A stretch of 42,892 nucleotides of DNA, taken from positions 1-42,892 of the forward strand of contig JALUWT010000113.1 of NCBI GenBank assembly GCA_027019325.1, given 5' to 3'. A program made the translations under genes and the position numbers. Below, piece by piece: positions 33,627 through 41,070 of the stretch; the first letter of the stretch is position 1; the number at the start of each line of letters is the position of its first letter. The notes below the pieces were generated by a model. It was not told the DNA's origin and did not search any database. It saw nothing but the letters and a program-made list of their open reading frames with translations. Source of the stretch: Sulfurimonas sp. Lineage in GTDB: Bacteria; Campylobacterota; Campylobacteria; Campylobacterales; Sulfurimonadaceae.

Positions 33627-34844
33627 ATGAGTACTTTCGCATTTGGAACTTACCGAGTCAGTGATGAAAATCTTTTACATATTGAAGCGTTAAAAGAGGC
33701 CATAGAAAGTGGCATACGCTTGATTGACACTTCTACAAACTACAGTGACGGCGGAGCAGAGAGAGCTATTGCCAAAGCAATGGGCTTTTTTGAAGATGAA
33801 ATCAGAGATGAGATTAAAATTGTCTCTAAATTTGGCTATATTCAGGGCTCAAATCTCCAAGCACATAAAGAGAGCCCCTTTGAAGATGTAGTAGAGTACT
33901 CTGAGACATGTTTTCACTCTATCAGTAAATCATTTTTACACAGAGAACTGACACAATCTTTAGAGCGACTGCAACTCAACAGAATCGACTGTTATCTAAT
34001 TCATAATCCGGAATATTTTATCTTTGAAGCTCTGCAGGAAAAAATGCCTCGTGATGCAATGCTTGACACAATGTTTGCACGCATATATGAAGCTTTCGTG
34101 GGACTTGAAGAGGAAGTTAAAGAGGGTAGAATTGCATCTTATGGCATCAGTTCAAATGCTTTTTCAAAAGCCCACAATGCAGAGGATTTCTTACCTTATG
34201 AAGATTTGATAACACTCGCTCAAAATGCTGCTAAAGAGGCAGGAAATGTTCATCACAGCTTCTCTACAGTAGAATTGCCCGTCAATCTTTTAGAGCGTGA
34301 AGGTCTTGCATGTGCTGCGTGGGCAAAGAGTAATGGGCTCAGAGTTCTTGTAAACAGACCGCTCAATGCACAAAAAGAGTCATTAATGTACAGACTTGCA
34401 GAGTATACAGAGCCTCACGAGTATTATCATGCACTCAATGAACTCTTAGAAATTTGTGACAATGACCAACTACAGTCACTCTACAATTTAATAGAGCAGA
34501 TGGATATGAATAAGCATAAATTTGGCTGGATAGGGGATTATGACTCCTTTTTATATACACAGATATTGCCAAGTGTAAAAAAAATGATAGAGAGTGTTCA
34601 TGAGGATGTTCTAGAGATACTTTTGAAATATATTGAAACCTTTTTATCCGAGTATAAAAAGATGGTAGAATACGAGTGCTCAAAAGCTACAAAAATTCAG
34701 CTCAAAGAGTTCTTTGTTGCATGTGAGAGTGTGATGCAGGAGTGTGCATTACTGTTTTTAATGCGCCAAGACGATATTGACTATATACTTGTAGGGATGA
34801 GAAAACCCAGCTATATTCAAGAGATTATGGCTTTAAAAGAATAG
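33627..34844 (+). CDS. Aldo/keto reductase family protein with helical C-terminal extension
   Basis: A 405-residue soluble protein. The first 270 residues follow an AKR barrel: FGTYRVSDE, the catalytic Asp/Tyr region GIRLIDTSTNYSDGGAERAI, the Lys in IVSKFGYIQGS, and RIDCYLIHNPEYF with the catalytic His. IASYGISSNAF and VLVNRPLNAQKES follow. The final about 130 residues are mostly helical and end with DIDYILVGMRKPSYIQEI, which replaces the usual AKR C-terminal segment with an insertion before it. Substrate unknown. Its TAG stop is part of the terminal repeat of the element that follows. Confidence 0.83.
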   Translation: MSTFAFGTYRVSDENLLHIEALKEAIESGIRLIDTSTNYSDGGAERAIAKAMGFFEDEIRDEIKIVSKFGYIQGSNLQAHKESPFEDVVEYSETCFHSISKSFLHRELTQSLERLQLNRIDCYLIHNPEYFIFEALQEKMPRDAMLDTMFARIYEAFVGLEEEVKEGRIASYGISSNAFSKAHNAEDFLPYEDLITLAQNAAKEAGNVHHSFSTVELPVNLLEREGLACAAWAKSNGLRVLVNRPLNAQKESLMYRLAEYTEPHEYYHALNELLEICDNDQLQSLYNLIEQMDMNKHKFGWIGDYDSFLYTQILPSVKKMIESVHEDVLEILLKYIETFLSEYKKMVEYECSKATKIQLKEFFVACESVMQECALLFLMRQDDIDYILVGMRKPSYIQEIMALKE

Positions 34845-35111
34845 ACTTCTTGCCTAACTTAGATAAATCTCAGAGGGAAGAAAAAAAGATGAAATTGTGC
34901 AAAATCTTTTTTGAAGCGTAGCCGTAGCTACGGTGATGAAAAGTTTTGTGCAAGTTCGCTTTTTTTTATCCCTCCCTTTGGGCATTTTATAGAGAGCTTT
35001 ACTCTGCGTTAGATAACCTTCACCGTAACTTCGGTTACGCTGAAGAACATCTGCCTTGATTAAAACTCTCTATAAAATGCTGAGATATATTTAAGTTAGG
35101 CAAGAAGTCTA
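34842..35111. repeat. 270-bp Y-shaped palindromic element (MITE/BIME-like) or structured RNA
   Basis: The ends (34842-34873 and 35080-35111) are inverted repeats of 32 bases with two mismatches, the outermost 19 perfect. Inside, a first long hairpin arm spans about 34871-34980, tipped by the perfect palindrome CCGTAGCTACGG (34922-34933). A second arm spans 34982-35080, closed by perfect 15-base arms (34982-34996 and 35066-35080) and tipped by CGTAAC-TTCG-GTTACG. The two tips are diverged inverted copies of each other. The element therefore folds as a three-way junction. It contains no ORF and occupies the only gene-free stretch above 300 bases here. Confidence 0.75.
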
Positions 35112-35200
35112 GTAGGTAAAAATATTTTTTATGACTTGTTAAGCGATTTTGTCATATTTTATGATATAAATATAATTAAGTATTGAGAAGAAGGAAGAAA

Positions 35201-40199: not shown

Positions 40200-40218
40200 A
40201 AAAAAAGTACAATTGCAA

Positions 40219-41070
40219 ATGCAAAATTTTGAGCAGTTTTTATTAGATAACCTACCACAATCACAAAGTATTCATCCTCATTACGAGAGTGCACTGCAAA
40301 ATATGCTTCAAGCGGGAGGCAAACGCTTCCGTCCCGCTCTTCTGCTCAGTGTTGTCAAAGCCTATAACCCTTTGATGCTGGATTCTGCTCGACATGGGGC
40401 ACTTGCAATTGAGCTGCTGCACACCTATTCACTTATTCATGATGATCTGCCTGCAATGGATGATTCACCGCTTCGTCGTGGAAATCCTACACTGCATGTT
40501 GTGTATGATGAAGTGACGGCAATACTTGTCGGTGATGCACTTAATACCTACGCTTTTGAAGTTTTAAGCAAGGCACCACTCTCTGATGAGGTAAAAATAA
40601 AACTCATTAGAGAGTTAGCACAAAATGGTGGTTTGAACGGTATGGTTTTAGGGCAGGCTATTGACTGCTATTTTGAAAACAGACCTCTGCAGCTTGAAGA
40701 TATTAAAACGCTTCATACAAACAAAACCGCCAAACTCATAGCAGCATCACTCAAAATGGGTGCCATCATTGCAGGTCATGAAGATGTAGCAGAGAAACTG
40801 TATGATTTTGGTATTCAACTCGGACTTCTTTTTCAGATTCAAGATGACATTTTGGATGTTACACAAAGTTCTGAAGAAGCGGGAAAACTGACAAACAATG
40901 ATGAAGATAAAAATAGTTTTGTAACTATTTTAGGACTTGATGAGGCACTGCGTGAGGCAAATGTTTTGGCAGATGCATTAACAGAGCAAATGTGTAGTTT
41001 TGATGAGAGCTTACAGCGTGAGTTGTCACCAATACTTACAAAATATATAAACAGACACAAAGGTAATTAA
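40219..41070 (+). CDS. ispA: Farnesyl/geranyl diphosphate synthase
   Basis: Condenses isopentenyl and allylic diphosphates for quinone and undecaprenyl chains. At 283 residues it has the substrate motif GGKRFRPALLL, the first aspartate-rich motif HDDLPAMDDSPLRRG (D75-D76 and D81-D82) and the second FQIQDDILDVT. The ATG at 40219 was chosen; a TTG at 40213 would add two residues. Transketolase follows without a gap, an order I recall from other Campylobacterota. Confidence 0.92.
   Translation: MQNFEQFLLDNLPQSQSIHPHYESALQNMLQAGGKRFRPALLLSVVKAYNPLMLDSARHGALAIELLHTYSLIHDDLPAMDDSPLRRGNPTLHVVYDEVTAILVGDALNTYAFEVLSKAPLSDEVKIKLIRELAQNGGLNGMVLGQAIDCYFENRPLQLEDIKTLHTNKTAKLIAASLKMGAIIAGHEDVAEKLYDFGIQLGLLFQIQDDILDVTQSSEEAGKLTNNDEDKNSFVTILGLDEALREANVLADALTEQMCSFDESLQRELSPILTKYINRHKGN

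Follow-up and report, generated by a model that had tools for sequence, protein, structure and literature searches.

The near-perfect palindrome at positions 34842-35111 of the window (the whole 42,892-nt stretch of Sulfurimonas sp. DNA analysed here) is a MITE that has inserted exactly in the stop codon of an aldo/keto reductase gene. It probably belongs to a MITE superfamily that extends across the order and is built on a conserved DNA-hairpin core; its members would be moved by whichever transposases fit their ends, and recombination between copies would have mixed them. The interior of a MITE is usually regarded, as in PMC10969869, as what is left of one decayed IS. A single structured core that carries the ends of different IS families over much of an order departs from this reading and, if true, means that the interior, and not the ends alone, contributes to the success of a MITE.

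As a single strand, the palindrome folds into a Y composed of an outer stem, hairpin 1, a linker and hairpin 2. The outer arms (34842-34873 and 35080-35111) are 32 nt long and 94% complementary, with two mismatches. The predicted fold of the + strand reaches -128.8 kcal/mol (z -14.3; shuffles -57.6 kcal/mol, 0/200 as good), and the - strand also gives the Y, at -124.3 kcal/mol (z -17.4; 0/200 shuffles as good). Arm comparison, fold and shuffles confirm the 270-bp three-way junction with 32-base, two-mismatch arms that a preliminary description of this DNA had reported. Its claim that the hairpin tips form a doublet of diverged inverted copies also holds: 34915-34936 and 35020-35041 are mutual inverted copies over 22 nt (86% complementary), and a covariance model of hairpin 2, applied to the sister copy L326, additionally picks up its hairpin 1 (1607-1704) on the opposite strand, at 29.8 bits. 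At the left end lies, as had been stated, the TAG stop codon of the aldo/keto reductase gene (PF00248), which at 34842-34844 provides the first three bases of the palindrome; to the right follow a gene for a NifU-domain protein (PF01106) and, further on, one for a Mur ligase.

To define the boundaries of the element, we compared orthologous reductase-nifU junctions, of which 15 of 30 loci were displayed. Three of the 15 are occupied (in the window genome G000, in G026 and in G013) and the other 12 are empty and read straight through, as in AAAGCTTAGGTAAAAATATT of G012; the empty sites of G052 and G018 are identical to each other. Comparison of occupied with empty sites reveals that a TA target was duplicated and that the element is 266 bp long. 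The palindrome is real over its full extent of 34842-35111; the outermost TA at either end belongs to the target, however, so the element proper (GACTTC...GAAGTC, + strand) is confined to 34844-35109, an assignment that the copies in its own genome share. The left duplication copy (34842-34843) also supplies the T and A with which the reductase stop codon begins, and the right copy lies at 35110-35111: insertion split the codon after TA, and the first G of the element restores TAG. The element is non-coding, with no internal ORF of at least 80 aa and no transposase gene. On the + strand it consists of a left terminal inverted repeat (34844-34873) with a kind-specific outer tip and an inner part ending in CTCAG; hairpin 1 (about 34874-34974), which repeat search, fold and models identify as a diverged inverted copy of hairpin 2; a CC(TTT)GG linker (34975-34981), evident in the fold and recurring in relatives with altered loop bases; hairpin 2 (about 34982-35080), delimited by repeat search, fold and covariance model; and a right terminal inverted repeat (35081-35109), recognized by arm comparison. 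The occupant of G013 (L216) sits in the same stop codon as those of G000 (L001) and G026 but resembles another G013 copy, L066; judging from these likenesses, it may have inserted separately at that TA or result from conversion after a common insertion.

Many copies, a TA duplication and empty orthologous sites bear out a non-autonomous mobile element, one of three identities that the preliminary description had proposed. The palindrome is clearly not a single-copy sequence without relatives: the window genome (a MAG of 218 contigs) holds seven full-length copies with the same kind of ends (kind A, 269-294 nt), plus pieces at contig ends, and 41 of 100 congeneric genomes contain a match to it (E <= 0.001). 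A pattern scan of genome contigs yielded 66 related stretches in Sulfurimonas MAGs and single-cell genomes, in S. indica NW8N and in 'Helicobacteraceae' MAGs, among them JALUFE01 with many near-identical copies. The window element gave nothing above chance against phages and plasmids, a pattern scan of viral contigs found no element, and an element with kind-F ends (L351) had no plasmid match. A kind-B-like element, L349, matches an unannotated stretch of the 395-kb Sulfurovum mangrovi plasmid NZ_CP087125.1 (95719-95919) at 80.8% identity over 52% of the query. Collapsed derivatives of 43-100 nt, which keep the ends and have mostly or wholly lost the core, also occur (L029 at G000:C156:18761-18803, L315, L318, L319, L199, L200, L321 and L322).

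The same core is found between several kinds of ends, to which we assign the letters A, B, E, F and G as labels of this analysis. Kind-A ends read GACTTCTTGCA; within G000, other terminal repeats around the core are AAGGGCACCTCTAAAAACC (contigs C65 and C21), AAGGACACCTC.. (C3 and C63) and CTGACCTTAYGCAC.. (C93 and C53). Five B or B' elements from G000 and G026 are only 33-40% identical to the window element in their tips, as against 86-96% in hairpin 1 and 53-92% in hairpin 2. In the B element L198, hairpin 1 is 95% and hairpin 2 only 55% identical, which indicates that the parts of an element vary independently. To follow the core beyond these genomes, we trained a covariance model (R1) on hairpin 2 from 26 sequences of the Sulfurimonas group, representing kinds A and B. 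R1 matches 58 of 397 genomes of the class, in 22 of 68 genera (a count made without a scrambled-model control), and among the matches listed all the genomes belong to the window's order. A second model, of hairpin 1 (R2), matches beside hairpin 2 in 24 of 33 loci tested (E <= 1.2e-6), and R1 itself matches hairpin 1 in several other loci (L014, L015, L347, L351 and L355). The 30 R1 loci that were read, with L329 and L348 left out of the assignment, add the end kinds TTACCGCACCA.. (E), TAAGTACCTAA.. (F) and TAGAACCTATCTCA.. (G), and L088 has yet another, near AGACCTCTATC... The tips of kinds A, B, G and L088 are somewhat alike, some of these likenesses being by eye, so that only B (IS5) and F (IS630) are shown to represent different families.

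Element size is nearly constant under these ends. Thirteen elements of other kinds were tried and 11 could be delimited (all but L339 and L354); each of the 11 measures 266-272 nt. Lengths of 262-273 nt are likewise found for 30 of 39 kind-A and 18 of 24 kind-B elements, the remainder having inserts or deletions. Two small inserts, one starting GTACCCCAAGGGCATTTCCTGCGGGC and one containing CATCGGCTTTGCCGA, recur at fixed places of hairpin 1 in several copies from different genomes (L005-L007, L070, L076 and L215). The G026 orthologue has in common with the window copy the TGCCTAACTTAG end variant and an identical right end (the 14-mer CTTGCCTAACTTAG was met in none of the other elements at the fetched loci), and its core includes two inserts present in other copies. 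We read this orthologue as a case of core conversion, since its ends go with the window copy while its core inserts match other copies. Homologous recombination or gene conversion that exchanged these parts (tips, hairpin 1, hairpin 2) among copies would place one core between different ends.

Two of the end kinds have matching IS partners. For kind B this is an IS in G054 with ends TTAAGGGCACCTCTTAAAAC / TTAAGGGCATCTCTAAAAAC and a 342-aa transposase (NCBIfam NF033581, IS5; PF01609 and PF05598); for kind F, in which element L347 starts TAAGTACCTAATCAAAAGTAACACCAA, it is an IS in G093 with ends TAAGTACCTAATCAAAAATAAAACCAA, a span of about 1126 bp and an IS630-family transposase (NF033545). A scan with kind-A end patterns (at most two mismatches) in 16 genomes and four more reached via named loci, with single hits inspected, found no autonomous partner for kind A, and searches for PF01609, PF13340 and PF13358 with end checks found no element with kind-A ends. 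Two genomes, G095 and G012, have PF01609 elements that were considered as kind-A partners and rejected, their ends being unrelated (AATTGAACCCTCTGAACAA). Because the IS ends match those of B and F and kind A has no partner in these searches, end identity supports movement in trans for these two kinds, and for kind A we only infer it. Each kind would then be cut and pasted in trans by a transposase that reads its ends. Under the definition in PMC10969869 the window element is a MITE, with the reserve of the missing kind-A partner.

These ends also bear on the REP-like identity suggested in the preliminary description. Taken as membership of the REP/REPIN class, it would mean a doublet that a Y1 (RAYT) transposase mobilizes in the form of single-stranded hairpins. 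The doublet of two inverted, diverged hairpins stands and resembles those of REP/REPIN as described in PMC3733652 and PMC3116915, and the tips are rich in GTAGC. Membership of the REP class, whose palindromes are tagged GTAG or CGTC, does not follow: the units in those descriptions are 20-40 bp long and RAYT-dependent, whereas here the size is 266 bp, TA is duplicated and the matching IS ends are of DDE type. Moreover, in 12 of the 27 carriers a search for the Y1/RAYT-type transposase domain PF01797 found nothing; G092, G112, G113, G397 and G289 are among these 12, some of which are complete or nearly complete genomes with many copies. We regard this route of movement as very improbable.

To further examine the level at which pairing is maintained, we analyzed changes in the stems. 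In a covariance analysis, as the preliminary description had proposed, hairpin 2 covaries strongly: of 20 pairs tested, 17 have changed on both sides, two-sided cells number 130 against 37.6 in shuffles (0/500 shuffles as high), and one-sided intermediates are rare in the stems. Between kind-A elements that are 92-95% identical, two-sided changes amount to 145, compared with 13.4 expected if the sides were independent. These changes fit arm-to-arm template switching, selection, or conversion from another copy alike. Template switching, by which one-step two-sided changes keep hairpin stems complementary, is treated in PMC8794818 as a mechanism and not as an element family; the likeness to the present case lies in the two-sided changes, and the mechanism leaves the conserved unpaired loops of this core unexplained.

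Departures from Watson-Crick pairing are informative about strand, since upkeep in a strand-specific RNA or in single-stranded DNA should favour G-U over A-C. Structures were predicted with Watson-Crick pairs only, for elements of 262-273 nt, with longer and shorter ones dropped. The resulting cells, which come from related sequences and are not independent events, number 32 G-U and 33 A-C in the 30 kind-A elements and 9 G-U and 24 A-C in the 18 kind-B elements; as a control, 23 tRNAs found at the fetched loci give 19 G-U to 1 A-C in their acceptor and T stems. Such a balance suggests that pairing is maintained in double-stranded DNA or via both strands, and it seems to be kept at the DNA level and not as one RNA strand. 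The stable RNA named in the preliminary description is therefore not supported as the cause of the conserved pairing, the two kinds of departure being about equal, unlike in tRNA stems. The arms would stay complementary by templated correction from arm to arm (template switching in a folded strand), by selection for a DNA hairpin or cruciform, or by both. For repeats of this sort, counting G-U against A-C is a simple way to tell whether a palindrome is maintained at the DNA level or as an RNA structure.

Genomic context leaves some room for an effect on transcripts. With mechanical ORF calling, and with one orthologous pair counted twice, none of the 85 occurrences falls within an ORF of at least 100 aa, and copies are found in divergent versus convergent gene contexts at 29 to 5. 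In tandem contexts they are co-oriented with the genes in 35 cases and oriented against them in 14 (p 0.004; 2 of the 85 undecided). For the 62 kind-A copies, 49 of 82 gene-start sides are at most 60 nt from the gene start, and at 12 of 39 gene-end sides of kind-A copies the element abuts or overlaps the stop codon. Of all the results, this 35:14 bias argues most against a reading at the DNA level alone, and it hints at such an effect. A structured RNA, or action within mRNA leaders or tails, could on this account be the reason for the conserved pairing: besides the co-orientation and the proximity to starts and stops, the fold is very stable, and an orientation-dependent effect on mRNA has been reported for ERIC (PMC2229807). 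Against it are the lack of strand preference in the stem departures and the outcome of an Rfam search, in which no family exceeded its threshold (only snoR125 appeared, at 25.7 bits against a gathering score of 100), and we consider it improbable. No conserved outward promoter was seen by eye.

The part of the core that arm-to-arm correction would be expected to erase is conserved. Hairpin 2 contains an unpaired motif with GTT on one side and GCCTTG..ATT on the other, invariant in 26 sequences and visible in other families too. In the window its 5' side is CGTTA at 35007-35011, in which GTT is the invariant part, and its 3' side is GCCTTGATT at 35053-35061 (both + strand), unchanged in the 26 sequences except for a one-base insertion in three. 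Because correction between arms should remove mismatched loops, the conservation of this motif speaks for a functional core, as does a length that stays nearly the same whether the ends are of IS5 or of IS630 type. Among specific readings by eye, an attC-like reading of the CGTTA motif was dropped, the paired partner box being missing, and K-turn and terminator readings of hairpin 1 were set aside.

The least certain steps of the mechanism that we favour concern this function: the core might act as a DNA-level fold that aids spread or tolerance whichever transposase is at work, and the unpaired CGTTA/GCCTTG motif might be a putative site read by a host factor. We tentatively extend this to a stronger form, possible but short of probable, in which the two-hairpin core of about 270 bp is a selected DNA-structure module, a 'universal passenger' that takes on the ends of unrelated IS (IS5 and IS630 among them) and exchanges both ends and hairpins between copies; a conserved host or transposition factor would recognize its CGTTA/GCCTTG loop, and its fixed size would reflect the geometry required by that factor. 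Alternatively, the core of the superfamily could be a neutral hitch-hiker, with homology and constant size due to common descent and frequent conversion and with ends that drifted along with their transposases. Palindrome upkeep through one-step two-sided changes requires no function, conversion between copies is visible and some tip kinds look related by eye, all of which suit neutrality; the invariance of the unpaired motif and its presence in other families, the match of B and F ends to unrelated IS families and the size held at 266-272 nt do not, and we judge a neutral core rather unlikely. If the picture of one structured core under ends of different IS families is true, the conserved loop is a handle for finding what the core recruits.

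The element has partial counterparts among known repeats. With MITEs in general, as defined in PMC10969869, it has in common small size, lack of coding capacity, terminal inverted repeats and a duplicated target, a location in AT-rich intergenic DNA, stable stem-loops and, in kinds B and F, ends common with an IS; it differs from usual MITEs in its one two-hairpin core, ends of different IS families, near-constant size and order-wide distribution. MITEs with IS630-matching ends are already known: RUP of Streptococcus pneumoniae (PMC2229807) has a TA target and IS630-like ends, as kind F does here, but is 107 bp long and in that account has one host species, with no core in common with other MITEs reported there. 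ERIC of enterobacteria, described in the same source, is also palindromic and intergenic, has terminal TA and an orientation that matters for neighbouring transcripts; at 127 bp and in other hosts, it is set apart from the present element by description and not by sequence. In the open-access journal literature covered, we found no account of such repeats in Sulfurimonas or its order, nor of one core in MITEs with ends of different IS families. The unusual part is the shared, size-constant hairpin core maintained at the DNA level.

Two further features of the window lie outside the element. The block TATGACTTGTTAAGCGATTTTGTCATATTTTATGATA at 35130-35166, upstream of nifU, is strongly conserved across the 15 displayed congeneric loci, and from this conservation it is probably a promoter or regulatory site. 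A second inverted repeat at 40210-40236 and 40385-40411 (27 nt, 78%, arms 148 nt apart) is possibly due to chance.
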